34,234 nucleotides of DNA from Chromera velia. Its lineage: Eukaryota; Sar; Chromeraceae. The stretch covers positions 1 through 34,234 of the forward strand of contig JAHBMJ010001202.1 of NCBI GenBank assembly GCA_018398765.1. Reading direction: 5' to 3'. The notes beneath the pieces were generated by a model. The model was not told the origin of the DNA and ran no database searches. It saw only the letters and a list, made by a program, of their open reading frames with translations. Shown piece after piece: positions 266 through 20,400 of this stretch (positions within the stretch are counted from its first letter, which is position 1; every line of letters starts with the position of its first letter). The position numbers and the translations under genes are program-made.

Positions 266-2248
266 TGACCCCAGCGGCCCTGCATCCCGAGGAATCTTGG
301 CGGTGTTCCTGATCATAGTCCACTGCCCTGCCTGGATCCGTTCGGCGACGCTCACACCCCCAGGAGCAGGCGCAAAGCCGCTCACGTTCTGCTGTTGCTG
401 TTGGGGGGGTCCGCTTACAGCAGTTGGAGCGATGGCAACAGCAGGGGTCGTCGGGAATGGACCGCTGAGGTGCGGGTGCGGTATGAGAGGGTGGCCCGCT
501 GCCTGCGTCGATGCCGGAGGGTGGAAAGGGGCTCCCGACTGTGAGGGTTGGAGGGCCGGTCCTAGCCCAGGGACGGAACGTGAAGAATGTCCGGGGGCGG
601 ACGGGGGAAAGGCAGGAGACGCCATCCCAGCAGATGCTGGCGGAGGAAAAGAAGCAGAAGGGAGAGCGAGAGCACTCCACCCTTCCCCCCCTCCTGCTGC
701 TGCAGGGATGAGAAAAGCGGGCAGTCGAGGATCGGGTTGGTCAGTCGTTCGATCTGCTGCTGCTGCCGTGTGCACTGCTTGCTGCGGGTTTGCATAGGGA
801 GACGGAGAGGTCTGCAGAGGCCCTGCATTCAACACAGAGGCGGAAGAAGAAGAGGACAGGGGGGCCGCTTGTCCGGAGATAGTCGCCCTTCCATTTCCTC
901 CATTTGACATGCCACCCGTGCCCCAACAACTCAATCCAATCTGATCCCCCGTCAAGGCGCCAGACCTGCCCTCCGATCGTTGTTGAGAGACCCTCAGCAG
1001 ACTCGATGAGGCCACATCACTTTGATGAATCCTGGCTCTTGCCAAGACGCCGCTACTCGAAGAAGTCCCGTGGGGGTGTCCAGACGCTGGAGGTGGAGCT
1101 GTTTGCATGTTGGTGGACGGAAAGGGAGGAGAAAGTTTGGGGGGCCCTGCAGCAGCAGGCCCGTTGCTGCTCCTGTACACATGGCCAGCCTGGGGGTATT
1201 GTAGGACCGGACCCTGGGACACAATCTCATCCGGAGTCCGCCCCCCCTGACCCGGAGCCTGAGACAACACCCCGTGAGATCCTTCCCCAGCTGCAACTGT
1301 TGCTGTTGATTGCGTGCGAGCAGAAGCCATAAAGAGACCCTGAGAGAAAGGGAGAGAGAGAGAGAGAGAAGGCACGCAAAAGAGGACAGAGGGGGGAAGA
1401 AGAGCAGTGAGTGAGAGGAGTGGAAGAAACACACGGAAACCCAACCGAATTCGCGATTGTGCTGTTGTCGTGCAAAGGAGGCGAACTTGAGCAACAAATG
1501 CATTCAATCAAATGGGCAGGTGGGTAAGAACAGGTTTTTATGAATCTATTGTCAAGGCCATTTACGCCACCTTCGTATCGTAGCATCATTCAAATGTGCA
1601 ACGAGGAGAGTGCAGCAGAGGGAAACGAAAAACCCTCAACACACTCGCACGCACATACACGCATACACGTTTGCTTGCAAAGACGCACGTACGCATTCTC
1701 GTATCGGCTGGGCAGAAGCAGATGATGATCATGATGACACCAGAGGGTCACGGAAAAAGCAAAAGATGAGTGCACCGACCGACCGACCAAGGGCTCTTCT
1801 GCCGTCGTTTCCAGAGACCTCCTAACGATCTGGGAGACGCCAGTTTTCCAGAAGAGGAGGTCAGTCAAGTGCTCTAAGGTTGCACATCGATGTACCTGCA
1901 TCAACGGAAAGAGAGCAGCGCGGCACAAGTATGTACGAGAGAAAAGCAAGGCACAGAAAAACGGACATCAGACAAAGGAAAACAGACATCAGAAAGAACC
2001 GAAAAACCCTTAAAGCCACGACTGACTTCTGGAGTTTCCCTGTTACAGATAGGGCACCTGCACGGCGCTAGGGCAGAAGCATAAGTGCCACACTCGCAAC
2101 ACACGAGGTGGCCACAGCTAGCTAGTAAGAGAGGTTTCCTTAAAAACCGGCCACAAGCGCTACAGAGAAGGGCAAGCTCCACCTCGTCCCATGCTTTCAT
2201 GAGAGCGGCCCGATCGGATGTGCAGGCCAACTCTCCTGCTGTATGCAT
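266..2248 (-). CDS. RING-finger protein with long disordered tail, 3' end outside window
   Basis: Two exons are visible. The 5' exon (2248 to 2027) encodes a C3HC4 RING: CSAC, then C-G-H, CCEC and CRCPIC in order, covering about 2164-2045. It ends at a GTCAGT donor in phase 0. The next exon (1339 to 266) follows a strong CT-rich tract plus CAG acceptor, also in phase 0. It encodes about 358 residues of Ser/Pro/Ala/Gly/Gln-rich sequence with no fold I recognise, including a run of five Gln. It ends at a GTGAGT donor, so the gene continues past the left edge. RING fingers of this type usually act as ubiquitin E3 ligases; that role is inferred from the family. The start at 2248 is the first ATG before the RING, but an acceptor just upstream could make this an internal exon. 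Starting translation inside the second exon at 1330 would lose the RING. Confidence 0.6.
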
Positions 2249-2808
2249 GGAAGTAGAGCTGTTCGTCTGCTGAGCTGGGTCGTTTTGGTGGAAACACAAA
2301 CGTTACTGCACCGAAGAGGTCGCTAGCAACAGCAAGACTTGGTGATGCTTTCAATCTGCATGATTGACACTGAAAACGCAAATTTCTACTTTGGATCCTC
2401 CGGTCATGAAAGGGTGTGCAGTGACACGAGCATGCCCGCTTCCAGCTTCCACTTGACTACTTCCTTCCTTCTTCAGATAACCTCTGCTCTCTGTCACGCA
2501 TGCGGCACCACGCAGATCGAAGACACACTGAAGAGCTCTGTGCTGCAGGTTCAGAAGAACAGTTCAAAAAGTGCATGCATCTGGATTGCATCTGGCGTCT
2601 CAACCCTATAGGCTTAAAGCCCTAAGATGAGAGGTGGGTCCAAAAAGCATTTGTTTGTTAAAATTACTCAAAAATATGCTGAACGGGCCCTAGCTTTAAA
2701 AAAACTTAAATTCACTAAAATCGACTGAAATTATAACTAAAGTCAGAAACCGCTCGATCCTAGTTCTTCAATTTGCCTTTAAAAGACTGTAGCTCTGACT
2801 TGAATTGA
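2249..2808. other. Intergenic, nothing recognised
   Basis: No convincing exon or RNA gene is visible. From about 2640 to 2800 the sequence becomes AT-rich. It may contain the 5' flank of the RING gene (reading left) and the left flank of the transposase relic (reading right). Confidence 0.5.
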
Positions 2809-4201
2809 TTGATAGAAACTAGGAAAATGATGAAACTAGAAGAGATCACGTCTCTTCTTAGTGTTCTAGACTTTATCCGGAACACTCCTTCTACTAAACT
2901 TTTTCACACGCTATGCAAATGGATGCTCCTATCCACCGTAAAGACTTGCGATTGCAGAAAAAACTTCAAGACATGGAAAGAAATCCGGGAGGGAGTTTCT
3001 GATTAAATTTTGCAGAGTCTCTTGAATTGGAACCAAGGCAAATATACCTGCAGGTCAACAAGGTATGGAGGAGATGCAGGAACTATCCTTGACAAACGTA
3101 TTTCACAGCTCAGTTTCCCAGCAAAAATCTGTCTCCTCTGAACCTTTACTGAGACCATCCCCCCTAAGCAGGCCTGGGCGCTCCTGTATACAAAAGGACT
3201 GAAAGAATTTGAATTCTCTAAAAAACAAGTACGGAGGTTCTACAGGCATATCCGAACATACACACGTGACTACAATCTGTTGGAGGAGAGTTTGGGAGGG
3301 AACAAGCTCGGAGGCCATCACACGTATGAGAAGGATGAAGAGTGCGACTGCCCTGAAGTTAGAAATGAAGACTTGAAAGAACCTCTCTTTGGGAAGTCAT
3401 GTGAGTGGCAGACACAAAAGGAGAATGAATCTCGGCTGACCATCTGTCAGGTCAATAAACGCCAGTCAGCGCGGCTCACGGCTCCGATCCATCGCCCTGC
3501 AGGCACACAGCTCAGCCGCACACAGGCATGCACGTATGTATATATACGTACGCGCACATATCTACCATACACATGTATCAATACAATCAACACACATGCT
3601 CGCGTATACACAGACACGCAGACACACAGATCGACATACAGACAGATGTACAGAGACATAGACATAGAGACAAATAGACAGATATACACACTGACTCACT
3701 GACTGACTGACTGCGATTTACACATGCATGCACAAACCCACAACCGAATGTATGAGTACATTGCTGATCTCTGATTGATCTGTGTGTGCAGGCTGCTTTC
3801 AGACGCACTTCAAGCTGAAGCAAGACACCGCTCAGGCGACTGGTCAGCCAGTGTGAAAGCAGACTCAAATGGAAAACTGGGTGTGTGGATGTATGGATCA
3901 GCACACCGGCAGGTTTCACTTCCGGATCATGCCGCCAGGTAGATGTGCACGGATGAAAAACGAATTGACTGGCTTCGTTTTGGAGGTGTGCGATCCATGC
4001 ACCTTTTTAGTTTCTGATGCACTGCGAGCAGACTACTCTTGCACACTGGCAAGAGCAGGCATTCTACACAAAAGTGTGAAGCACTCAGGGGGAAAAAGAG
4101 TTTTAGAAAAAAAGGATGAGAGCGGGGCTGTATTGTATACGCAGCGTATTGAATCTCTTTGGAATCGAATTCAGTTCTTTCTTGGTGTCTACAACTTGTA
4201 G
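2809..4201 (+). mobile_element. Merlin / ISXO2-like DNA transposon relic
   Basis: The block at 3869-4201 matches the ISXO2-like (IS1016/Merlin) DDE transposase core as I know it. It has an opening 'NWVCGCMD' strand, then VSDALRADY with the second catalytic Asp (residue 50 counted from the Met at 3869), and TQRIESLW with the catalytic Glu (residue 95). Upstream, about 3145-3470 carries a helix-turn-helix-like stretch (SKKQVRRFYRHIR) leading to a Leu-Gly-Gly segment and EPLFGK, the region where the first catalytic Asp normally lies. The two blocks are separated by simple repeats (3530-3715) and a plausible intron acceptor at about 3790. A TGA at 3854 interrupts the frame just before the core. 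The stretch 2809-3006 could be the N-terminal zinc-ribbon part, but this is weak. I found no terminal inverted repeats, so the element ends are not defined. Decayed element is the likeliest reading; a domesticated gene is possible. Confidence 0.5.
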
Positions 4202-6245: not shown

Positions 6246-6605
6246 CCCTATATAGCTGTTGTTGGATGTTGTGTTGGATGTTGTTGGGCCATGTTGGGTC
6301 GTCTCTTCAATTTTTGTTTTAATTTGGACGTCCCGTCTCCACTCACATCCACTCACCTCTTCGCGATCGAATTGATCAGATTTCGACAGATCACTGCCAC
6401 TACTGTAAGATTGACAGGGTTGATCAGCGTCTTTGAATCATAGAAAGCTCCCATTCATGCAAGCGCACGAAGTGCTGTGACTCCAACCGACGATCTGCCG
6501 ACGATATATTCTTTTCGCCTTGAGCAACACTGACACTGAGACAGAAGTTCGATCTGACTCAGATTGAGGGCCAGACAAAGAGAGATTGAGAAGGGAGAAA
6601 GGAAA
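6246..6605 (+). promoter_or_regulatory. 5' flank of the Mpo1-like gene
   Basis: About 360 bp lie between the MITE and the ATG at 6606. There is no gene in it. CG-containing 'CGATC' words recur (6363-6500), but no TATA box or other defined element can be called. The leader just before the ATG is purine-rich. Confidence 0.3.
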
Positions 6606-7217
6606 ATGGGATCGGTGGTGTCTCTTGTAAAGTCTCCATCCTTCAAGGAGGCTTATGACAGTCTGGTATGTAAATTGTATGCTGGCTATGGAGCATACCA
6701 TCACGATCGTGTGAACCAGTTGATTCACGTTGTTTTCGTCCCTTCCATTCTCGGCAGTCTGATGGGACTGTTTCTGTACCTGCCCATTGAAGGGACACAG
6801 GTCTCCTTCCTCGGCATGACACCGACGTGGGGCTGGCCTGCTCTGCTTCACATTCTTCTTCCCCTCTACGCAGACCTCCCCGGCGGTGCAGTGACCCTTG
6901 CTATGTACATCGGTCTGCTGAAGGGATCGGCTGAAATGTTCAAATTTTTGGGTTCTAACGAGGCGTGGAAGTGGTTCCTTTTCATCCAGCTGTTCTCGTG
7001 GGTTGCACAGTTCTACGGGCACGCGGTACACGAGAAGAGGAGACCTGCTCTGATGGACAACCTGCTTCAAATCTTTGCAGCCCCCTTCTTTGTCACTTTG
7101 GAGGTTCTCTTCGCCTTAGGGTACAAGCCTTGGCTGAAAAAGGCATGTGAGGCGCGGGTGGGTGCAATGTTGAAAGAGCTGCGGGCGCTTGACGCAAAAA
7201 AGAAACAAAAAAACTAA
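6606..7217 (+). CDS. Mpo1-like (DUF962) membrane dioxygenase
   Basis: An uninterrupted 203-codon frame with no introns. It belongs to the Mpo1-like/DUF962 (YGL010w-type) family. The N-terminal motif is YHHDRVNQLIH (Asn37, His41) followed by VFVP. A second motif is GHAVHEKRRPAL (His139, His142, Glu143). Hydrophobic membrane segments lie at about residues 41-60, 78-105, 121-137 and 153-172. Yeast Mpo1 is an ER-membrane, Fe2+-dependent dioxygenase that shortens 2-hydroxy fatty acids by alpha-oxidation in the phytosphingosine degradation pathway; conserved His residues are thought to bind the iron. Length and motifs are complete for the family. The C-terminus is lysine-rich (KKKQKN), which would suit an ER membrane protein, although it is not an exact KKxx signal. 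ATG 6606 was chosen because the family motif starts about 30 residues later and the upstream in-frame leader has no ATG. It is the one clearly intact single-exon gene of the window. Confidence 0.92.
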   Translation: MGSVVSLVKSPSFKEAYDSLVCKLYAGYGAYHHDRVNQLIHVVFVPSILGSLMGLFLYLPIEGTQVSFLGMTPTWGWPALLHILLPLYADLPGGAVTLAMYIGLLKGSAEMFKFLGSNEAWKWFLFIQLFSWVAQFYGHAVHEKRRPALMDNLLQIFAAPFFVTLEVLFALGYKPWLKKACEARVGAMLKELRALDAKKKQKN

Positions 7218-7612
7218 AGTGTCTCTGCTTCAGGTGAAGCTCAGAAATGAAAGAGAGTCTTGGGAAGGCCCAAAATGCAATCGGGAAGTAAAGGCCGACC
7301 CGCTCTCAACGGCGTTCAAAAGGCGACATTTTTTTTTTTTTTTGCTTTTTTTCGATTTCGAATCAGTAGCGTGATCGATGCTGGGTGTTCCTGGAGGGAA
7401 ATTATTCGGAATGGATGGCGCTGACGGATCGCGGGACACACTGTCGGATCGAGCGCTCCTTCGATCGTTTTTCAATTCATGTAATCATTCATCTTTAATT
7501 TCAACTTGCATGAAGAAGCGATCGACGGCTTGAAAATTAAGTTCTCTGAAACCGTCGGACGGACTCTTCTCTGAAGCTCTCGCTGAAGAACATTCTGGTA
7601 CCATTCATTCTC

Positions 7613-7684
<72 letters not shown>

Positions 7685-7852
7685 CGTGCGTGTGTGTGTG
7701 TGTGTGTGTGGCGTTTCCCTTTTTTTCTTTTTTTCTGTTTTTTCTCTCTGTCTTTCCTCCTTTCCTTCCTTTCTTTCCTACTTTGCTTTCTTGCTTGCTT
7801 GCGTTCTGTAATTCATTCTTTCCTTTTTTCCCCTGTCTCTTTTTTCTTTCTG

Positions 7853-7904
<52 letters not shown>

Positions 7905-8270
7905 TCATTCATTCACTCATTCATCATTTATTTATTCTCTCTTATACGCTTTTTCTCCTCCTCCCCGTCTTCCCCCCCCCCCCCTTTCTCTCTCTTTCTC
8001 AGTCTTATGTTTCTTTCTCAATCTCTTTTTGACGGCCAACTCGGTTCGGTTCGTTTAGAATAACGTATTTTTTATCCCTGCTGGAGACGTCTAGTCAAGC
8101 CTGTCAAGGACTTGAACTCCAGTTTAGAATATACAGATGTAAATCTGTCGCTTGGCTGGTTCTAGCTGGTTCTTCTGTATTCCTTGAATTTCCTTCCACT
8201 CCTCCGTTTATGATCTTTTCAATAAAAACCACACAAAGTGATCTAATTAAAGTGATCACTGAATTATAAC
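7218..8270. repeat. Intergenic microsatellite cluster
   Basis: After the Mpo1-like stop there is a T-run (7330-7350). Then come (CT)n at 7617-7648, (GT)n at 7649-7709, a T/C-rich stretch, (TTTC)n at 7853-7903, (ATTC)n at 7904-7930 and a poly-C run near 7974-7984. No gene is supported; long frames here only translate the repeats (Cys-Val, Phe-Leu-Ser). Confidence 0.85.
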
Positions 8271-10706
8271 TGATGATGATGATGAGGTGACTTAACCCAC
8301 CAGCCATCGTATCCCAATGGTAAAGGGCAGTTTGTGAGCATTCATGTCATATTGCAAGCTAGGAGCACGCTAGCGAATGCTCACCTAAAGTGGCCGAACT
8401 TTAGGACTACTAGCTAGTAGAACACTGCTCCCCAGGATTGATTAGTCCGGTCCTAGGCATGCAGCAATGAGGGCACTGGCCTTTCGGGCATCCCTCTGAA
8501 GAAGAAGCGAAAAGTACCGCCTTACCCGCTCCTCAGCCTGCCCCACCCCCCTACCCCCTCGGGCTTCCTGTTTCTCTTCATACTCACACACTTCTTCTAT
8601 CGACATACACTCCAGTCGCCTATACCAGAGATTACTCAATCTCCCCCGCGGCCCCTCCGTTCGGACATAAGTTGTCAGACGGTGAATCGGATCGTCAATC
8701 CATTTCTTCCAACTTTTCTCTTCACAGGCTTTGCAGATTGATTCAACCCTCCCCCCATGGTTTGCCCCCCCTCTAACAATGGCGCACAACAAAGGGCGGA
8801 AAACTGCCCCAGGAGAAGATAAGAACTACTTGGGAAGAAGTTTTGCCGAGGCAGACCATGAGCCCCCCTTCCCCTCCACCAAGCTTCCGAGAACCAATTT
8901 TGCAAAGCGTTTGCTACTACTATTCTCCTTCTGATATTCGGTCAGACAAGCAGAGTCTGACGGAGGGAAAGACACACTCCCATGTATTCCTTGTCTCCCC
9001 TGCCTCCCCCCTCTCCTTTCTGTAATGGAGACCAGGTTTACCCAGTCCCCCATCTATTCGTTCACCTCTCTATTTCTCGCTCCCCTTTTCAGCTTGCTAT
9101 CTGATATTCTGAAATCGACCTCATCTGGTTCATCTTCCAGGAGGGCAGGACTGACCGGTTGCACAAGCTTCTTTGCAGACCCCGACCACGCCCTTAACTC
9201 CCCGGCCCCTCCTGTGGCATGCCCACAATCATGCTTGAGGCAAAGCTAATCGAGCAAGGGAGAGACTTTTCAAATACTCCCCCACTCTGACACTGAGAAT
9301 CTCTCTCATAGGCCTCAGCCCAATGGCTGCAAGGGTGGGAAACACAAAAGAATTCCAGGGCAGACGGAGAGACCAACGCACACAACGAAGCTGGAGGGAG
9401 TCTAAGCATCGGATGTCAGATTCTTGAATGGGGAGAGCTTCAAGGGAATAGGTGGTGGTGGGCTCCCACATCCCCTTAAAAAGGAACATGCGACTATGGG
9501 GGGAGAGCATACCTATTGACACACACAGACCCATAGCCCCTCTAACTCCCCTTTCTGTGGCTCCAAATCTGGCGGTCACAGACTTGCGGGGGTTCGTATC
9601 AGAAAAAACCTGACAGCCAAGATATCTGTAACAGTTACTCTCTACCCACTCGACCGTCTGATCCTTGAAACGAATTTTATCTACCCCCTCTCTACCTGCC
9701 AATCTCATCACCTTTGTCTTCTTCAGATTCACCATCAGCCCCCACTTGTCACAATAGGTCGCGGCCCATCCATTCTAAAAAAATTGGTAAGGGGTCTTCA
9801 GCTCGGGAATATTTGGGTACCACCGTATTAAAGACTAGAGAAAATCAGCCTTCGATGGGTCAGATGTTTTGATTTCAACAGTGTTTTTTGCCTTATTTGA
9901 GCCTTTATGGAAAAGTTTGGTAAGAGGGGGGCAAAAAAAGGAAAATTTGGCAGGGGTTTTAAAGTTCTGGTACTAAAAATTCCCGAGTGAATGGGCCATG
10001 CAATAGGTAGCCAACCGATCAATCCTCTTCTGAAGGTCTTGGAGGGAGTGTCCAAAGATGACAAGGTCATCGGTATATCCAATGCTCTCCAGCAGTAGGT
10101 CTCCTAACCTCACTTCTGTTGGGGGTGTGTCTGGGGAAGAAGAGTTTAAGGCTCTGGGCTGAGCCTCTAACTCCCCGGGCCCCTCCATTGGGCGTTGGCT
10201 TCCTCGGGAAGGTTTGCTCGTTCCTCTTACTAGAGCTCCCTGCATTGAAGGCTAATGGAGGTATGGATCTGATTTTTATTGATAAAGAGAAGAAAGAGAA
10301 GAGGAGAGAGTGGGTCCCCTTGCTTGACTCCTGTTCCTTCCTCAAACATATTGTCCGAGCCCTCAATCTTTCCCATTACTTTGACATACATTACATAAAT
10401 CATTCGAATATCCCCCTCCCCCAGCCCTTCTTCTTTAAGCTTCTCTATCAGTTTTTTTCTGTCTACTTTGTTAAATGCCTTACTGAAGTATACAAAGGAA
10501 GCAAACAACGGTCTCTTCTTATTTTTTGCAGTTTCGGATAAAACAAACAAAGCATGAATCGCCTCTCTAGTTCCGACCCCTTTCTTGAAGCCTATCTGTC
10601 TGTCATCGATCCTCGTTCTCAGACGGAGACGAGAATCTATAAGTAGGGCAAAGAGCTTGGCAAGAAGGCTTGCTATGTGTATGAGCCTCTATTCATCCGC
10701 TAATAG
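8271..10706 (-). mobile_element. Non-LTR retrotransposon (LINE), decayed and 5'-truncated
   Basis: Read on the minus strand, the reverse transcriptase begins near 10680 (LLAKLFALLIDSRL, then RQIGFKKGVGTREAIHAL). It continues through FSKAFNKV and GVKQGDPLSPLLF (about 10470-10290), then YTDDLVIFG (about 10080-10050) and a thumb-type segment DKWGLMVNLKKTKVM (about 9750-9700), followed by a C-terminal domain down to about 8442. Breaks: a TAG just before the first block, a frameshift near 10240, the inserted MITE at 9760-10000, and further frame changes between 9228 and 8792. The 3' UTR holds the palindrome CTACTAGCTAGTAG (8407-8420) and ends in a short (ATC)n tail (8271-8284), typical of LINEs that end in microsatellite-like tails. 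No endonuclease domain is visible. A second copy of the 3' end lies at 25423-25660. Confidence 0.85.
9760..10000. mobile_element. 241-bp hAT-like MITE inserted in the LINE reverse transcriptase
   Basis: It is flanked by the 8-bp direct repeat CAATAGGT (9752-9759 and 10001-10008). The ends are imperfect inverted repeats: GGCCCAT near 9763 against ATGGGCC ending at 9997, continuing inward as CTCGGGAATATTTGGGTACC against CTCGGGAATTTTTAGTACC on the other strand. Removing the element and one repeat restores an uninterrupted reverse-transcriptase reading frame. An 8-bp duplication with short inverted ends fits the hAT superfamily. It has no coding content. Confidence 0.85.
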
Positions 10707-10710
10707 AGAC

Positions 10711-12154
10711 TCAGGCGTCGTCTGTGATAACCGGTAAGCCGAGCTCTTCTGTCCAGCTTCTGATTGGGCCTCTCACACTCTTGTGGGGCCGTGTTGGAAT
10801 GAATTCGATTTTTTTTTCGCAGTCAGCCTGCAGTACGGCCGATTCGGAAGTTGAGGCAGACCTGGCAGTGCAGCTCTCTGCTCTCTCGTCAGTCTGTTTT
10901 TTGAATACCGATGACACTAGGCTTCTTGGTGTCATGTCTCATATTTGTTCAGTAAAGGAAGACTGTCCGAGATGAAGTGCCGCAGTCGGATCATCTAGAC
11001 CTCTATTTGCAGTGTCGTCGCTAAGAAAGGGCAATTCATTCAGGCCCTCAACCACTTCAGCTGCTGCCGTCATGTCTTTTTCGCAAACCTCATGGCCCCT
11101 TACTTCTCGATTCAAGATTGAAGTTCCTTCAGTCTGATGAACAGGCCGGTCCGCTTTAAAAGAACAGACTGCTTGTTCCATCGTATCGTGGTGATGTTTT
11201 TCGGATCCCTTCTCTGTTTGTCCTTCACGTAGCACTTCAGGCTGCTCCGTTGCCGCCACCGACAAGGAAGGCCCACTTTTTGGAAGGCCCGACTTGGAGT
11301 TGTTGTCGGCCGGCATGTCGTGATTGTCTTCCCTCCTAGACAGCAACAGGTCTGACATCGCTTCGGTCTCTTCTCTTTCTCTGCTGAAAGAAATTCCTCC
11401 CGAAACGTCAGCGGCTCTGGACAGAAAAGCATTCAAGTCGTTATTGGTATCCGTCTGAATTTCTGCGTCTTTTGTGTATGGTTTTTCGGTTTGCGTTCCT
11501 GCCTCCATAGTAAGAGAGACAGTCGGTGGCAGAGTGAGTTTCAGAAGGTCGTTGGTGTTCGTTCCTCTTTTGGCTGTTGTCGGTCTCCTGTCCCCACCTT
11601 AAGGCGACATCTTCGTCTGGCAGCTTTCTGTCTTCTTCTCTCCATGAACCGCATTACTAAAGGTGACTACCGAAGTGGCTTCAGTGTCGTCCTCTGCTGG
11701 CACTGCAAGAACACCGTAAGATGACCGTGATGGCACTTTACGTGGATCAAAGAGGCTCCAAGGGTTGCCTGTTGTTCCTAGAGAAAACGATCGTAACTGT
11801 CTTGCCCGTTAGCTCGAGAGGAGAAACCCTAGGCGCCAGAGGAGCTGGAGCTTGTTCTGACCGCTGCTGTTGCTGCAGAAATTGGGAAAACATTTCTTGC
11901 ACTCGTTGCAGAAGCTCGTCTTTGAGGTCAGTCATCTGTTTTTGCGTGTGGACAATGTTATTTTGGTTCTCACGTAGCTGGATCAGTCTCTAATTTTTCT
12001 CACAAAGCTCTTTCTTGAAGTCTTTATGCCTCTGCGGGCACGATTGAAAATGTTGGTAAAGATACCTGGAGTCCTTACACTGTTTGCTACAGTGTTGGTA
12101 TACATAAGACTGGGCCAACGGAGTTGTTACAATGACCACTGCTGCTGTACTCAT
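10711..12154 (-). pseudogene. Broken zinc-finger/coiled-coil ORF next to the LINE
   Basis: From an ATG at 12154 the minus frame encodes about 50 residues with a Cys/His cluster (QHCSKQCKDSRYLYQHFQSC, then PQRH). After it comes a Gln/Glu/Leu-rich coiled-coil stretch ending in four Gln. A TAG interrupts at about 11989. After 11757 the frame shifts and continues through a TAA (about 11600) into a hydrophilic segment (11508-10939) with 'AEIQTD'-type repeats. A TGA at 10939-10941 then separates a last open piece ending at 10711. That makes three stops and one frameshift. It could be the ORF1 (gag-like) part of the adjacent LINE, since it lies immediately upstream on the same strand, or a host gene into which the LINE inserted. 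I do not recognise a specific family. Confidence 0.5.
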
Positions 12155-12239
12155 CGTTTTGTTCCTTTTTTTCTTGCTCTGTCATGTCTTTAGATCAGAA
12201 ATGCACGTGCAGGGCCTCAGCTCGTAGACCTGCCCCCCC
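12155..12239. other. Short spacer before the minisatellite
   Basis: Unique sequence between the ATG of the broken ORF and the first minisatellite unit. It may be the 5' leader of that ORF. Confidence 0.4.
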
Positions 12240-13340
12240 TTAGCTGCCGTATAGATCTTCCGAAGCGCTTTCGAAAACCCCTACCAGATCCATGTTAGAC
12301 CCACTCCAGACCCGCCCCCCCTCCTGCACAGATCTTCCAAAGATCCCTGCTAGACCCCTTCGAGACCCGCCCCCCCGGCTGCACAGATCTTCCAAAGACC
12401 CCTGCCAGACCCTTTTAAGACCTGCCCCCCCTGCCGCACAGATCTTCCAAAGACCCTTGCCAGACTCCTTTGAGACCCGCCCCCCGTGCCGCACAGATCT
12501 TCCAAAGACCCCTGCTAGACCCCTTTGAGACCCGCCTCGTGTGCTGCACAGATCTTCCAAAGACCCACTTCAGACCCGCCACTCCTGCACATCTTCCAAA
12601 GACCCCTGCCAGCTAGACCCCTTCGAGACCTGCCCCCCCTGCCGCATAGATCTTCCAAAGACCCTTGCTAGATGCCCCCTCCGGCCTGCTGCACAGATCT
12701 TCCAAAGACCCTTGCCAGACCCCTTTGAGACCTGCCCCTCCTACTGCACAGATCTTCCGGAGACCCCTGCTAACTAGACCCCTTCGAGACCTGCCCCCCC
12801 TGCCGCATAGATCTTCCAAAGACCCTTGCTAGATGCCCCCTCCGGCCTGCTGCACAGATCTTCCAAAGACCCTTGCCAGACCCCTTCGAGACCTGCCCCC
12901 CTGCCGCATAAATCTTCCACAGGCCCTTGCTAGACGCCACCTCCGGCCTGCCGCACAGATCTTCCAAAGACCCTTGCCAGACCCCTTTGAGACCTGCCCC
13001 TCCTACTGCACAGATCTTCCGGAGACCCCTGCTAACTAGACCCCTTCGAGACCTGCCCCCCCTGCCGCACAGATCTTTCAAAAACCCTTGCCAGCTAGAC
13101 CCCTTTGAGACCCGCCCCCCCTGCCGTATAAATCTTCCAAAGACCCTTGCTAGACGCCACCTCCGGCCTGCCGCACAGATCTTCCGAAGACCCTTGCCAG
13201 ACCCCTTTGAGACCTGCCCCTCCTGCCATACAGATCTTCCGGAGACCCTTACTAACTAGACCCCTTCGAGACTTGCCCCCCCTGCCGCATAGATCTTCTA
13301 AAGACCTTTGCTAGACGCCTTCTCCGGCCTGCCACACAAA
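12240..13340. repeat. Higher-order minisatellite, about 53-56-bp units
   Basis: About twenty tandem units are built round CAGATCTTCCAAAGACCC plus a variable half. That half is either 'AGACCCCTTYGAGACC' with 'TGCCCCCCCTGCC', or the 'CCTCCGGCCTGC' variant. From about 12613 a three-unit block of about 161 bp repeats: the word CTAGACCCC recurs at 12613, 12774, 13036, 13095 and 13256, and two of the intervals are exactly 161 bp. The unit length is not a multiple of three and several frames on both strands stay open, so I do not call it coding. Confidence 0.9.
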
Positions 13341-13660
13341 TCTTCCGGATCAACACGTTGGCGCCTGCCCAGACGCATCCTAGATCTCTACAGGACTCCC
13401 CTCCTTCAATGTTCCTCGCCAGGTCTTCTCTGTAGGCCATGCAACGTTGCCCGTCATGCAGGTTTTTCATTGACCTCCCAACGTTGTCCGCCAGACATTC
13501 CCCCAATGCTGCCTGTCATGCAGATCTTGTGGATGCAGTTGCCCGCCAGACCTTCGGTAGACCCCGCCAAGGTTGCCCGCCAGATCTTTTGCAGACCTGG
13601 CTCGCCCACGCGTCCTGCGGAAATACGACGAATCTCGCGATCTCTGTAGAATTCTTGAAG
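13341..13660. repeat. Degenerate continuation of the minisatellite
   Basis: Words such as CAGATCTT, GCCCGCCAGA and GACCCCGCC recur at irregular spacing, with increasing divergence rightward. This looks like the decayed edge of the array. Confidence 0.5.
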
Positions 13661-14416
13661 GAATCTGAATTTCACGTACAACCGTTATGGTCTTCTTAGT
13701 AGCTTAACCCTCGAGGCCTGGAGCACCACGAAGGTGTCGATCAGCGGTTAAGAGCTCCGGAACTTCCGCGAGTTCCGGTCAGTGAACGCAGGCTCTATGT
13801 GTACGTCGTCTCACCCTAAAATTTCTTTAGCATACATTAGCGGTAGCCATCCACGGTGCATGCATGGATGGATAGCCGGCACCGCATGGCCGTCAGCTTA
13901 GCAGAAATGCGTACATGACCGTGCGGCGGGGCACGAGCCTGCATGTACATTTTTAGAGGTTACATACATGCTTGTGCCTAGTCTAGCAGGGAGTGGAACG
14001 CTCCATTCGATATCATAAATCACCAGAACTAGCGTCTTTATCCGTTAACTGTCTTCTTCCATAAATTTATGAAGTTCTTTCTAAATACTCCTGTGCATTT
14101 CAGGTAGAGGGGCACCAGCTGCCGCTAAGCTTGATTGGCGTTGTCGGACTGTGATCCACTGTGGAGAAAGCGGCCGTGGGGCAGCAAGGCCTTTTCCCTG
14201 TTCAACTGGAGGAGACCGTCTCTTTAGTGTTCTTACAGAGCCTGTCGTCAGCATTGGTGCTGTGACGTAAGGAGAGCGGTGGCTTGGCCCAGGGGCATAC
14301 GTATTAGACCGTATTAGATATTTTGGGGAGCGTTCGACCGCTGTCGTCATGCTTTCATCGCAGCTGCTTGAGACGATGAGGGACGTTAAAGCAGGATGTA
14401 GCTCAGCTAGCTCTAC
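13661..14416 (-). other. Spacer with a small unrecognised minus-strand ORF
   Basis: From 14350 to 14081 the minus strand holds an 89-codon open frame, rich in Ser, Pro and Arg, of no known family. It starts 67 bp after the end of the nuclease frame, on the same strand, so it may be a third ORF of the cassette. The rest (13661-14080) has no gene. A tRNA-like word (CAGCGGTTAAGAG near 13742) and the palindrome-rich 'GGTGCATGCATGG' (about 13856) were seen but not resolved. Confidence 0.35.
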
Positions 14417-15613
14417 TTAGAGATGTGGTGGAATGGACAGCTGAAAGAATGTTGCGAGTTGAGAGCTAGGCGTACAGTCAGCTAGCAACTCAGGTTCGTA
14501 GCTAGGTTTTTCTGGAGGTCCTGGTCTCAATGAAATAGATTCCACCCCTGCTTGAGGCTCTACCTTAACTGTTGATAAGCTTGGTTGTGAGCTTTCTTCT
14601 TCTTCCTATTTATCAAAGTCTAGAAGCTGAAGCTGTTCATCAAGCAGCTGAACATCCTTTCAAACCTTGAGGTGGTATTCGACGAGCAGTTGGTCGCCTG
14701 TCCCCTAGCCTGTCCCTCGAAAGTTATCCGCAGGGACCCATTGAGGGTTTTCGTTACCTAGTGGATAGTCCTTCCACAGGACTTTGTACCTATTACGCCT
14801 TTCATCAAAATTTAGGATCTCTTCAATCTCCCAGTCTGAGTCTGCTTCCAGGTCTGTTTCTATGCTAGCTTCAAACTGCTGCGGGTTAAGCGTAGGCTCT
14901 AGGTCGACCGATACTCCTTTGGCTCTTAAGTACTGGCGGAGCAGATCGGCATCCCCCAAAGCCGGTGTTTGGTAGTCAAAGCTGGCCATCCACCGAATTT
15001 CCTGAACGTTCATCATTTTAACCTGTTCATTCCCCCGCTTCTGCTGTAGTTCACGGGCTGCTTGATTGGTTTCTTTTTTATGTTGCCGGAGACTCATGTA
15101 TGATAGGATTCTATGTTCCTCTTGGAACCATGATAACCATCCGGGTAGAAGAACTACGTCCAGCCTGGAGTCTAGGACATAATCCGGTAAAAAGTGAATA
15201 TTGGACCACAATAGATAACTATCGATTCGGTAAACCTCTTTCATGATGTGGTCCCAAAAAGATTGGAACGTCGCTAATACATATGCTCTAAGAACGTTAA
15301 TCAGCCATTCTTGTCGGGACTCAAAGAGCTGGACTAGGCTTTTGAGCTTATAGTCACTGAATAAGTCGAGGAGCAACCGTTCTAAATGGTCCAGCCGCGT
15401 TTGCGTGACCCCAGGCGGAAATACTAGGATACAGATTATGTTGAAGCCCCACAGATAGCATAAGTGGTACTGGTCTAGTCTACGGTCTGGATTCTTTAAC
15501 GTACTACCAATTTTGATAAGAGAGAGAGACGCTAGGAATGCATGGTTTTCTAACGTATAGAGAATTGGACGGTTTACGTTGATTAAACATACAATAGCTC
15601 CACCAGCAGGCAT
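14417..15613 (-). pseudogene. GIY-YIG-type nuclease with C-terminal chromodomain, in-frame stops
   Basis: The open frame from ATG 15613 to the TAG at 14705 encodes 302 residues. Residues 5-90 resemble the GIY-YIG/T5orf172-type fold. There is a first strand 'AIVCLINV', then IKIGST (33-38, the YIG strand), an Arg pair (44, 45), a hydrophobic strand IICILVFP and an acidic helix with Glu78 (LERLLLDLF), where the metal-binding Glu is expected. The middle (about 90-215) is helical and unrecognised. After an acidic linker, residues 259-302 are a chromodomain: DWEIEEIL, then YKVLWKDYP and PQWVPADNF. The TAG sits in a 12-bp tandem duplication. Beyond it the same frame continues (LLVEYH, the expected last chromodomain helix) to a stop at 14417, crossing a TGA (14660) and a TAG (14606). 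Proteins of this class cut DNA, and chromodomains bind methylated histone tails. The combination suggests a chromatin-targeted mobile-element nuclease; that function is inference. Confidence 0.65.
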
Positions 15614-15658: not shown

Positions 15659-17128
15659 CTACGCTGCGTGATCGTGCATGCCTAGGCGCATGCATAACAT
15701 TGAATTATGAAGATGCTCGGCAACTTGCCGATCAAAGCGCAAAAGGTCGGCGTTTTTGTTCCGGAGGAGACACTCCAAAGTACCTCCTGTTTCAAAAATA
15801 CAGTGCGCATCACGCGCTAGTTCTAGAAGGCCGCAAAGTTCTGCTAGTATTGAAGGAGAGGCCAGTGGGGCAATGGGATTAACTTAAACGTCTAGGTTTT
15901 CTAGAGGCTGTGCTAAGACTGCAGTCTGTATACGGATCTCCATGCAGGAATCGGTGATACGCTCAAGAAGCCGTTTATACTCAAGAGGGATGACGGAAAG
16001 GAAGAGATAATAGTGGACCATACTTAGAGCTTGGAGAGCCCATAACCACCATCCGCCAACGCGCCTATAGGCGTAGGATATTAAAAACAATAATCAAAAC
16101 AAAAAAAAAATGACTATATGATTCAAATACAAAAAATGTAAAGTTTGACCTATAGGTTGCTACGAGGACCTTCCGGTCACCTAAAAACGTGTTCAAAAAT
16201 TTAAATGAATTGTTTTGGGATTTTTGAAAGCAATTGTATGGATTTTCATGAAGATGAATTCTGAAGTTAGTCTGTATACGATAGGCTAAATTATATAATT
16301 TTTGTATTTCCTTCTTCAAGAATTTTGACACCTTCAATCGGCACCTCCGTCTATCCACCGACCCACCCATTGTTTCCTGCCGGCATCTTCATCTTTTTTC
16401 TTCTATTTTTTTGGAACTCTGAAAGCTTCGCCGCCTTGACGACCCTGAAAATATTTTTAAAACGTGTTCTGTCATTGTTTTCAATCATGAGACTAAAAGT
16501 TGCAGTCTTTGTACTTCGCTCACACCTAGGCTCACACCCACCCGTTCTCCTTAATGATGTTGCCAGCATCATCGTTGAATGGTCTTCTTCTTGCTTCTTC
16601 AGGCAGTCCTAACATACAGCATAAAAACGTTGGTTACCAAAGGGATTGGTAGGGATCGGTCGGTATGTAAAATTCAATTCTAGCGTCACTCAGTAATTTG
16701 AGATTCATTTGAATTCATTTCAGTCAGTTCCGTGCGTAGACTTCCGTCTCTTCTTATGGATCTCTGTGGATCTTTATATAAAAAACTAAATTTTAATCAT
16801 CATTCTCTTTATAAAGCTGATTAAACCTCCTAGTAAACTTTAGTTAGAACTTATGTCTTAACTAGTGTCTTGATTTATATTTAGATGGTTTCAAAAATAA
16901 AAAAACCAAAATCAAATATTTAAACAAAAACAAACCTAAAAAATGACGTTATGTTTTATTATTTGATTTTGATGTCCTACGCCCAGCAACGCGCGCTAAC
17001 GACTGCATACACTGTAAAATACCTGTGGCTTGCAGACCGCGTTCTAGTGCCATACTAGGAAAAAATTCAACCAAGTCTACCGAGACATTATCTAGTAAAT
17101 TTTCATCTAGCGCATCAAGCAGGTTCAT
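15659..17128 (-). pseudogene. Unrecognised ORF upstream of the nuclease, split by a transposon
   Basis: The frame starts at ATG 17128 (MNLLDALDENLLDN) and runs to the transposon at 16986. It resumes at 16064 and continues in the same frame (GGWWLWALQALSMVHYYLF, EYKRLLERI) to a TAA at 15884. Past that stop the same frame stays open to 15659 (LAELCGLLELARDAHC, then RFDRQVAEHLHNSM). The pieces together give about 185 residues, helical, of no family I recognise. It ends 45 bp before the nuclease ATG, on the same strand, like a compact viral or mobile-element gene pair. Codon choice differs from the host genes here: CTA leucine codons are common, as in the nuclease frame. Confidence 0.5.
16065..16986. 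mobile_element. 922-bp non-autonomous DNA transposon
   Basis: It is bounded by the 8-bp direct repeat CAACGCGC (16057-16064 and 16987-16994). The terminal inverted repeats are imperfect, about 30 bp: left CTATAGGCGTAGGATATT followed by A-rich sequence; right, on the other strand, CTGGGCGTAGGACATCAAAA. The interior is AT-rich with no recognisable transposase. The insertion splits a reading frame that rejoins exactly when the element and one repeat are removed. An 8-bp duplication allows hAT-, P- or Merlin-type families. Confidence 0.8.
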
Positions 17129-17401
17129 CGAAGGTTACAAACGGGATAAGGTAAAAAGGGATAACTAGAGTGCTTTGGGGGGGATGATGGGCTAGAAAGT
17201 CGGCGATGAGCGATCGAGCGGGCGGGGGAAATACATGTTGTCTTTTTTTATAAGAGAAATACATCTACACTCATTTATACTATATGTACGAGGCATTACG
17301 GCTTAGTGAGTAACACAAACAAAGTAGTATCTAGATCTAGATCTATATTCATTCTCTCCTTCAACACGCATCAAAGCATTCGATTGCGCACGTGTCGATC
17401 G
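17129..17401. other. Spacer between cassette and large gene
   Basis: Upstream of the cassette's first ATG and downstream of the large gene's stop. It contains ATCTAGATCTAGATCT (about 17329-17345) and AT-rich sequence. I see no gene and no inverted repeat that would define a cassette end. Confidence 0.4.
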
Positions 17402-20400
17402 TCAAGCTGTTGCAGACAGAGCGTCCATTTTTGCTCTGATCTCCAGGATCAAGTCGGTTGGTGGTGAAAGGCCTCCCTTCCAGTACCACCGCGTCAAGCA
17501 TTCTCGGTAGAGAACTGCTTTCTGAAGAGCAATTGTTGCGTGTCCATGTTGCCACCGCGCTTCAGCTACATCCGTTTCGTTTTTCACCCGTTTTGTCCCT
17601 GCAGTCGACTTCCATACAGGAACCAGTTCGTACAGCTCGGGATTGTGCAGTTTCAGCTGAAAGAAAAAATAAAAGTCACAATACAGCGAATGCGCAACCT
17701 TCCGGATGCTCGTTGTTGCGTTTTTGACATCTTCGTCAACCAGGTTGCCGAACTCCTTATCAAGAGTCTCCACTTGAGGTGTCCAGGCGGCTTCTGGGCG
17801 GTGATGAGCCTTCTCATGCGTCGTGCTTGAGACCCCATCGCCATCCTCTTCGCGATTGGGCAGACTGGTCGACCATCCTGCCCCCTCGTTCTCGGGTTGA
17901 ATTTCCCCGGAATGCAAGGAGCGCTTGCCTTCTACGTGTTCCCACACAGCGAGCGGCTGAGGAAGTGGTACCTGGTCCGGGAGGATACAATACTGAATTG
18001 ACGAAAACTCGTCTTTACAGTCTTCGATTGCCTTTTTCAAAACGGCGTAGATTTTTCCAGCCCCGTCTTCAGAGCTGGTGAAGAAATCGACACAAATTTC
18101 AGACTCTCCCTCTCTCAAAGGAGGACAGTCCCCAAAGGCGGTCAACGTGTGAAACGTGAGAAGCCGCGCCAGGCGCCCGCGGAAGGACTGGTCTTCCCCA
18201 TCCTTCAATCTCAGGCGTGCCGTGACCTGTCGACCCTTCGCTGCAAAAGCACACCCAAGCACACGCCGATCTGAAGAACATGGCAGCACCGAATGCATGC
18301 ATCCTGCAGAATTAAATTCTTGGTCGAAGGTTGCAGAAGCCAGCCTGTGGACTATCACACAATGGCCGACACGCAGACACGTGGGGTCACGTATCGGAGG
18401 CCGCCACACACAAACGCATTCACGGACAGAACCCCACAACCAGGTCATCACGCTAATCTCAAGACATGGCGACGTCGAACGCATGCTGGAGAAAACCCGG
18501 GAAAGGCCCGCAGACACTCAGAGGCGCAACAGACCAAGACCAAGCCTCTTGACGCAGGCACACACGCTCTCACGGCACGCATGCTCAGGCTGCCTGAGCG
18601 TTCCATCTGTGCACCGACCACCGAACACCCGACCAACAGCCACACACGGCACGCGCATGTCAATCTAAAGAGATGGAGGTGCCGAGTATACGATGGAGAA
18701 TTTTTCGTGCGGACAACAAGAAACAGAAAGAGGGGGCGGGAAGCCCGCAGACACTGCGCTCAGGCGTCTCGAAAGCGGAACGAGTGTCGGAACGACGCAG
18801 TCGACCCTGAGTCACACACGTGAACGAGCACCACACACACACACACACGATCCAATCCGACCAGCCAGACCGTGACGAACGCGATCGACCTTCAGCCACG
18901 CACGTGAGCGATCACTAGACAGACATGCAGATCCAGTCCGACCACCGAGTGTATGATGGAGAATTTTTCGTTCGGACGACAAGAAAAAGAAAGGGGGGGC
19001 GGGAAGCCCGCAGACACTGCGCTCAGGCGTTTCGAAAGCGGAACGAGTGTCGGAACGACGCAGTCGACCCTGAGACACACGTGAACAAGCACCAGACGCA
19101 CACGCCTATGCACCGAACACCCGGAGGTCTCGGACCAACAGCCATTCGATCACACACAGCTGCCGTCAAGCTAAAGAAATGGAGATCTCGAACGTATCAT
19201 GGAGAAATTTTCGTTCGGCCGCAGTCGATCTTCGGGCACACCAGACACAATCCGACCAGCCAGATGGACGCAATCGACCTTCAGCCACCCAGACACACAC
19301 GACGACAAGCCAAACGGAACGACGCAATCAACCTTCAGCCACGCACATACGTGAACGAGCATGCACCGAACACCGTAGGACCAACAGCCAGCCATTCGAT
19401 CACACACAGCTTTCGGCACTTCAGTCCGCAGCCACAGAGACAGGTAGCTGACGGTCACGCGCGGACGCACGCACGCGAGAAAGAAAGTCGATCTAAAGAG
19501 ATGGCGGAGACTGATGTCTGCTGGAGAAATTTGGGGGGGGAGACGATGCGCACGCGGGAAAGGCGAGAGAAAAGCTCCGAAGATGACAAGTTGCGCCCAT
19601 TGCCCGATCGAGGATATAAGACTCAAGCACGCACTGACCTTCTGCCGGCGGAGCTCCCCGTTTCACGAGCCCCCCCCCACAGCTCTCTCACATCTCCTGA
19701 ACTGAACTCGTTCAAAACATTGACTCGTTCTGCATCTTCAGCCAGGCACGTCTGCAATTCATCTTTTGAAGTACAGCCAAGCACTCGATTGAAGAGAGCG
19801 TCACCTTCCGCTGGCCATCCAATCTTTTCAAGTTTCCCGCGGAGGGCTTCGGAAGTCGTTCCGTTTCCGTAGTACGCGTGGGCGAGCCGGTTCTTTGTCT
19901 TGTTCGACAGCGCCCACTCTGCACCACGCAAGGAGTCGATCGGCAACGACAGGATGCACAGATGGAATGGGGAGGAGACGGCTGGGGAAAGGAGAACGAG
20001 AGGCGGAGAGCCAGTACCACAACCGCGATGAGATGCGGTGAGAACAGCAGAGCACCCAACCACGGACGCAAACGGATGCCGACCTCGAGTCTCGACGACT
20101 GCCGATCAAAATTGAACAAAAGAAAAACCGACCTGCAGCAACGCCGGTGTCCGCAAACGTCTCGTCTCCTCGCACACCGTCGCAGAAGTGCTGCACAGAG
20201 GGGAGAGAAGCACAGGGTGCAATGGATAGCGCAGGTCAACAGAGAAAGCGGAAGCAAGGGGGCGCCGACTCACCGCTTTCTCAATCTCCGATCTGGTGTC
20301 CAGCTTGCAGCCATCACGCCCAGCCACACGTTTCTTGAGCCCTGCAGGCAGGTAAACGAGAGACGGAATGCGAATTATATATTTAGAGCCCACAGGCGTG

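Follow-up and report, generated by a model that had tools for sequence, protein, structure and literature searches.

A decayed GIY-YIG–chromodomain gene in Chromera velia and its likely place in a family of mobile DNA elements

Could a nuclease that carries a chromatin-reading domain be the hallmark of a mobile DNA element? This question is raised by a locus in Chromera velia, on a stretch of 34,234 nucleotides (assembly GCA_018398765.1, contig JAHBMJ010001202.1, positions 1 to 34,234) that was analyzed as a whole and is called the window here. An original prediction, made from the letters alone, had placed a GIY-YIG-type nuclease fused to a chromodomain at 14417–15613, with these two parts alone, and had proposed a homing nuclease or a new mobile-element endonuclease. 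We found that the plus strand of 14417–15613 is full of stops and that the frame sits on the minus strand, where it runs without a stop from 15625 to 14708 and is closed by a TAG at 14707–14705; counted from the first methionine (15613), the protein has 302 residues. On balance, we favor the reading that this ORF represents a decayed copy of a gene that is the signature of a mobile DNA element family. The gene consists of the following parts:

14708–15613, minus strand: GIY-YIG–chromodomain ORF, 302 aa, shortened by the TAG (translation, Pfam, genome matches)
15302–15559, minus strand: T5orf172/GIY-YIG domain, residues 19–104, with K34, G36, R45, E78 and E102-W103 (Pfam profile, relatives, genome-wide model search)
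14708–14842, minus strand: chromodomain, residues ~258–302, with cage residues W261, W280 and Y283 (Pfam, relatives, residue alignment)
14324–14707, minus strand: decayed C-terminal tail of the same gene (tblastn with the open L022 protein)

The window protein retains Tyr19, Lys34-Ile-Gly36, Arg45 and Glu78. When compared with Pfam, it reached E = 0.0017 for T5orf172 over residues 19–104 (19.3 bits, 0.7 bits short of the cut-off of 20), as well as E = 0.01 for MUG113 and E = 0.011 for Chromo (residues 262–297), both under the Pfam cut-off. Both domain calls are nevertheless settled, because better-kept relatives score strongly: T5orf172 was found over the cut-off in L025 (E = 1.6e-8) and in residues 1–292 of L022 (E = 4.3e-6), and Chromo was found in L042 (E = 2.7e-10) and L036 (E = 8.9e-6). 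A chance origin of the ORF is ruled out by its 134 matches in the source genome. The predicted fusion is thus borne out, on the minus strand, by profiles, residues and relatives. The two parts do not stand alone: a middle region separates them, a tail follows the chromodomain, and the gene is often paired with others, most often one for a primase-helicase.

T5orf172 belongs to the GIY-YIG superfamily. A search of the whole 178-Mb genome with the T5orf172 model returned five places, all above the cut-off and all five being copies of this family, although only these 5 of the ~92 family loci gave matches. In the Pfam scan, no T5orf172 match was found in L024, L036, L010 or L017, and L042 and L043 reached only E = 0.06–0.08; none was reported for the full 462-aa L022, though its first 292 residues matched. 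Of six aligned N-terminal domains, four matched at E ≤ 0.1. When 39 copies, of the ~92 loci, were aligned, the Arg45 column held Arg in 36 of the 37 copies with data, the Glu78 column held Glu in 33 of 39 and Lys in the other 6 (among them L022, the copy bounded by inverted repeats), and the Glu102 column held Glu in 38 of 39. We take Arg45 and Glu78 to be the catalytic residues of the GIY-YIG domain. The profile match together with this Arg and Glu would place the domain in the GIY-YIG superfamily, as a T5orf172-type member, and in most copies examined the nuclease domain looks intact in design. The single-sequence AlphaFold2 model was poor except over the chromodomain (mean pLDDT 41.8; below 50 at residues 12–58 and 79–186), and thus also over residues 1–95, for which the original prediction had called for a fold comparison. 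Foldseek with this model against the PDB found nothing at E ≤ 0.001, and the 50 matches listed included no GIY-YIG structure. A sequence search likewise matched no solved GIY-YIG structure.

For the chromodomain, a profile built from twelve family rows matched MPP8 among the solved structures (E = 5.5e-9), together with HP1-type, Clr4 and SUV39H1 chromodomains, and in the MPP8 alignment, the F/W/Y residues of the cage positions line up. Residues 261, 280 and 283 presumably form the methyl-lysine aromatic cage. They are conserved throughout: position 261 is W, F or Y in 34 of 34 copies (5 copies with a stop there were set aside), position 280 is W in 26 of 26 (13 set aside for the same reason), and position 283 is Y in 39 of 39. 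Foldseek listed chromodomains at probabilities of 0.75–0.9, but with weak E-values (0.3 or more; 0.46 or more for those of HP1, MPP8 and Rhino). By profile and residues, the domain is predicted to be of the H3K9me-reader kind, with both the Chromo profile and the three-residue aromatic cage of a methyl-lysine reader, and it looks sound in design. An element carrying it may select its landing sites by reading chromatin.

How common is the gene, and in what state are its copies? The 134 matches of the window protein to its own genome correspond to ~92 loci on 84 contigs. The locus count combines these matches with one locus from a further search, and the matches are lower bounds; the figure is approximate, since C3114 and C3700 represent one place on overlapping contig ends and insertion-split loci may have been counted twice. 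Most of the listed matches hold stops; a few long ones, on C1391, C1089, C1667 and C3114, have none across the aligned part. L022, an open protein of C type, has 462 aa and a tail C-terminal to the chromodomain. In a tblastn search, its residues 1–393 aligned to the window from 15613 to 14324; because this homology continues beyond the TAG, the window copy is decayed, and three stops lie inside its stretch 14591–15610.

From mutual alignments, the copies were sorted into families A (which includes the window), B, C, D and E. Family E is ~33% identical to the window protein, and the two domains recur together across the families. Copies aligned over their length carry both, as the original prediction requires; in L025 and L036, a stop separates the two domains. 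Another 11 matches (E = 6e-5 to 6e-4) covered only the chromodomain part and presumably represent other chromodomain genes. The copies on C1667 and C3114 are 98.8% identical with differing left (5′) flanks. In the four of nine pairs for which dS could be computed, dN/dS was 0.11–0.24, one of these pairs being near saturation, which points to past purifying selection on the gene. The idea of a new mobile-element endonuclease is therefore well supported, the gene being dispersed, multi-copy, mostly decayed, formerly under purifying selection and, in one copy, bounded by inverted repeats.

Among the 39 copies aligned, the stops in decayed ones fall mostly at Trp and Gln codons (85 of 118), with TGG changed to TAG 36 times and to TGA 4 times, and C/T differences are more frequent when the next base is A or G than when it is C. 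RIP-like hypermutation was considered in view of these stops, but the bias in C/T context (CpA, CpG) is modest, and the idea is simply recorded here. Tandem arrays were considered too, as five contigs (C1698, C2812, C3477, C243 and C376) each hold two true copies in the same orientation; the idea was dropped because, in C243, the shared stretch is little more than 4.7 kb, far below the copy spacing of 13.5 kb.

Do the copies lie within an element with recognizable ends? Inverted repeats of at least 50 bp were looked for in nine contigs. On C1391, inverted repeats (332 alignment columns, 78%) enclose an open nuclease gene and a primase-helicase gene within 8,487 bp. On C2799, inverted repeats (248 columns, 84.7%) enclose only a primase-helicase, in 3.8 kb, with no nuclease match. 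A 31-bp stretch (93.5%) is common to both sets of ends, which also share ATGACACTTATGACAC in mirrored copies. Genome-wide, with at most one mismatch, ATGACACTTATGACAC occurs at 24 places, compared with 2 for its reversed control. These places are on 15 contigs, 7 of which carry a nuclease or primase-helicase gene; without the two source contigs, the figure is 5 of 13, at distances of 0.4 to 25 kb. Such terminal inverted repeats (TIRs) were not found in the other seven of the nine contigs scanned, including the window; C2955 and the window gave only short unrelated pairs, and some stretches may be too short. A TIR search of five B-type contigs returned only 11–15-base matches, apart from a single 30-base match at 80%. 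By eye, no target-site duplication was seen at the TIR elements of C1391 or C2799. As a separate observation, L035 holds a second inverted-repeat element of 1.2 kb (8224–8501 and 9160–9439) beside the primase-helicase element, and near matches to the 16-base motif ATGACACTTATGACAC lie in or next to it.

The primase-helicase was identified from a stop-free frame of 809 aa with PriCT_2 (E = 5.8e-16), Prim-Pol (E = 3.2e-8) and D5_N (E = 9.6e-5) above the cut-off and DUF5906 (E = 1.4e-4) under it. Two genome searches with its parts gave 42 loci; the window has no match, and the copy on C1391 is itself interrupted. At 22 of the 42 loci, the gene lies 3′ of the nuclease gene on the opposite strand, tail-to-tail, and in 20 of these 22 the spacing is 995–1227 bp (1330 and 5414 bp in the other two). 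Of the other 20 loci, 8 show a nuclease match at a different place on their contig, and 12 show none. Other partners take the same place in other families. In family E, an AAA-type ATPase stands there, tail-to-tail with the nuclease gene at 7 of the 9 ATPase loci (one of them 5.6 kb away). In four of the five family C copies, the partner is an apparent long zinc-finger/coiled-coil gene, as judged from neighboring frames, the C-terminal part of which is tail-to-tail with the nuclease gene at 6 of 14 loci. In family A, as in C1400, a related zinc-finger/coiled-coil gene lies downstream on the same strand (C1400 ORF L046:2005-2652:- matches L032:2391-3179:- at E = 9e-13). These counts take one or two matches per locus and use 9 of 13 ATPase matches, 14 of 19 zinc-finger/coiled-coil matches and part of the primase-helicase matches; those left out are further matches of loci already entered.

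Two minor features of these loci may be added here. On C3314 (L041), a 95% inverted repeat (494–3280 and 7227–10000) carries two primase-helicase copies and is either a real palindrome or an assembly artefact. In family E, a ~96-bp unit recurs upstream of the nuclease gene (L044 5144–6156, L045 ~3851–3925, L043 356–441), and C1710 has ten more matches to it, C3426 one, and C3114 a single partial unit; these are possibly promoter or origin repeats.

The evidence that links the nuclease gene, the primase-helicase and the TIRs comes from one element whose ends are visible and from the 22 pairings. Best explained, in our judgment, the copies belong to a TIR-bounded, apparently capsid-less DNA element with a nuclease steered by chromatin marks, an account to which we give somewhat better than even chances. 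Cutting, binding and transposition are activities that we infer here from sequence. Extrachromosomal copies of the element, from TIR to TIR, would be made by the primase-helicase, and the chromodomain would bring the protein to nucleosomes that carry methyl-lysine marks. The GIY-YIG domain would nick or cut the target, and perhaps the element ends too, and the copy would be joined in without a fixed target-site duplication. Insertions would, as a consequence, collect in silenced chromatin.

Might the primase-helicase with its TIRs be the real element, and the GIY-YIG–chromodomain gene either its passenger or a separate, second element frequently carried alongside? We consider this a serious alternative, if not a likely one. 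A TIR element of 3.8 kb with the primase-helicase alone does exist, the nuclease gene also stands tail-to-tail with the ATPase or the zinc-finger/coiled-coil gene at the loci given above, and ~70 of the 92 nuclease loci are without a tail-to-tail primase-helicase match. On the other hand, 20 loci from diverged subfamilies keep the same geometry and spacing, which argues for inheritance as one unit, and the three families with their different partners have the nuclease gene in common. The view that the nuclease mobilizes the element in every lineage is most strongly opposed by the Lys at the Glu78 position of the TIR-bounded copy and by the nuclease-free primase-helicase element.

If the favored account of a chromatin-steered DNA element holds, it may, more tentatively, define a new class of eukaryotic DNA transposon. 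Such an element would be TIR-bounded and self-replicating (Prim-Pol/SF3), with a GIY-YIG domain as its sole recombination enzyme, a histone-methylation-reading chromodomain choosing the sites, and a replication partner whose place an AAA ATPase or a zinc-finger/coiled-coil protein can take. Chromodomain-guided insertion, which is associated with retrotransposon integrases, would then have had a separate origin, on a nuclease of quite another kind. A testable case of a small DNA element joining virus-type replication to histone-mark targeting would also be at hand, together with a naturally occurring GIY-YIG nuclease able to read a chromatin mark.

Several of these features are shared with viruses, and the copies could instead be capsid-less derivatives or pieces of a polinton-like virus (PLV) or virophage lineage, which we regard as rather unlikely. 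According to passages of PMC12721341, PMC4642659 and PMC3671162, PLVs, polintons and virophages encode GIY-YIG and primase–SF3 helicase proteins, with a C2H2 Zn-ribbon fused to the GIY-YIG domain in the case of Mavirus and OLV. TIRs occur in these groups as well. The resemblance extends, in the source passages, to Tlr elements (Preplasmiviricota), to a C-terminal nucleic-acid-binding module on the GIY-YIG proteins MV06 of Mavirus and OLV1 (a Zn-ribbon there, a chromodomain here), and to the expansion of PLV-type elements in protist genomes. Both the primase–SF3 helicase and TIRs (in two of the nine contigs) were found here, as shared features that are insufficient for membership. However, the packaging ATPase (A32) model PF04665 had no match in the genome at E ≤ 0.01, and no capsid gene was recognized among ten frames of the C1391 element, which gave no match in a Pfam scan (one is the primase-helicase's own end and three are antisense to it). 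IMG/VR viral contigs, in scans suited to close relatives, returned no relative of the fusion protein or of the primase-helicase. The elements here also differ from PLVs in having swappable partner genes and, going by the PLV passages, in size (3.8–8.5 kb compared with 14–40 kb). Among phage records, the nuclease had no match, and nine records weakly matched the primase-helicase (22% identity over 40% for the top one); prokaryote genomes gave 17 pattern matches, none of them a relative of the fusion protein.

A retroelement origin was weighed as well. In chromoviruses (Ty3/gypsy), the integrase carries a chromodomain at its C-terminal side, and the title of Gao et al. 2008 states that retrotransposon integration is directed to heterochromatin by chromodomains. 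The arrangement here is similar in that the chromodomain is C-terminal on an enzyme thought to act on the target; the enzyme is, however, a DDE integrase in chromoviruses and a GIY-YIG nuclease here, no reverse transcriptase was seen in the element, and no rve integrase match was found in the proteins scanned, in which the chromodomain follows the T5orf172 domain. Penelope-like elements, in the passage of PMC6431247, share a GIY-YIG endonuclease within a eukaryotic mobile element; they differ in that the element here has a DNA replication gene where no reverse transcriptase was seen, and a chromodomain. The same passage describes giant Penelope-like terminons with stand-alone GIY-YIG, Rep and coiled-coil genes, and the family E copies begin at different points within the 96-bp tandem unit, so that the genes could be accessories of such a retroelement, mobilized by its reverse transcriptase. 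We find this quite improbable: the scanned frames (of at least ~105 aa) of the TIR-bounded C1391 element gave no reverse transcriptase match, and the reverse transcriptase recognized close to the window gene, in a decayed frame matching RVT_1 (10230–10688, E = 3.7e-12), is LINE-like, as judged by eye. Finally, an ordinary, immobile host gene family would fit the purifying selection, and host proteins also have chromodomains, but ~92 loci, most of the listed matches with internal stops, near-identical copies with different flanks and inverted repeats round one copy leave that reading barely credible.

Has such an architecture been described before? The nearest published fusion found is a bathyarchaeal protein in which a URI/GIY-YIG domain is joined to Cren7 (passage of PMC5906684). 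It likewise unites a GIY-YIG nuclease with a small chromatin/DNA-binding domain, and differs in being archaeal, a single instance, with Cren7 in place of a chromodomain and, in that passage, no mention of mobility. In the partial literature coverage available, with subscription papers mostly outside it, searches on GIY-YIG, T5orf172, homing endonuclease, Polinton or primase-helicase–TIR with chromodomain did not find the architecture described. The suggestion of a homing nuclease is not supported, no intron or intein context having been noticed in an analysis directed at other features.

Around the gene, the window holds further remnants of the family and sequences of other origin:

15719–16063, minus strand: 3′ part of the ORF1 remnant (the protein upstream of the nuclease gene), 63% identity to L017 ORF1
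16065–16986, no strand assigned: 922-bp insertion splitting ORF1, with imperfect TIRs and an 8-bp duplication, GCGCGTTG, at 16057–16064 and 16987–16994
16982–17231, minus strand: 5′ part of the ORF1 remnant (alignment); the match enters the insertion by a few bases
13599–14323, minus strand: 3′ stretch common to window-subfamily copies; alignments to L003, L005, L007 and L018 stop at 13599
10939–12161, minus strand: approximate decayed start of the zinc-finger/coiled-coil gene, estimated from the C1400 alignment

In A and B copies, the nuclease gene is preceded by ORF1, which has no Pfam match. The 922-bp insertion is a separate short transposon outside the element, hAT-like or MITE-like in look. 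On the other side of the gene, window positions ~13596–11512 align to C1400. Two apparent ends were rejected as termini: the one at −685 is the start of ORF1, and the one at 13599 is a junction in some copies only.

Other sequences were noted in passing. A tandem array of a 55-bp unit (~19 copies) occupies 12296–13322, and related sequence lies 3′ of the gene in C1581 and C1400. The decayed reverse transcriptase spans 9229–10688 on the minus strand, its second part (9229–9774) matching RVT_1 at E = 0.14. Rfam gave no matches in the window, L034, L039 or L037. Just upstream of ORF1, a 371-aa open frame (17402–18517, minus strand) has no Pfam match, and its N-terminal end overlaps a repeat found upstream of the gene in C243, C376 and C3740. 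At 6558–7217 on the plus strand lies an Mpo1-like gene (PF06127, E = 7.5e-18), which is probably a host gene.
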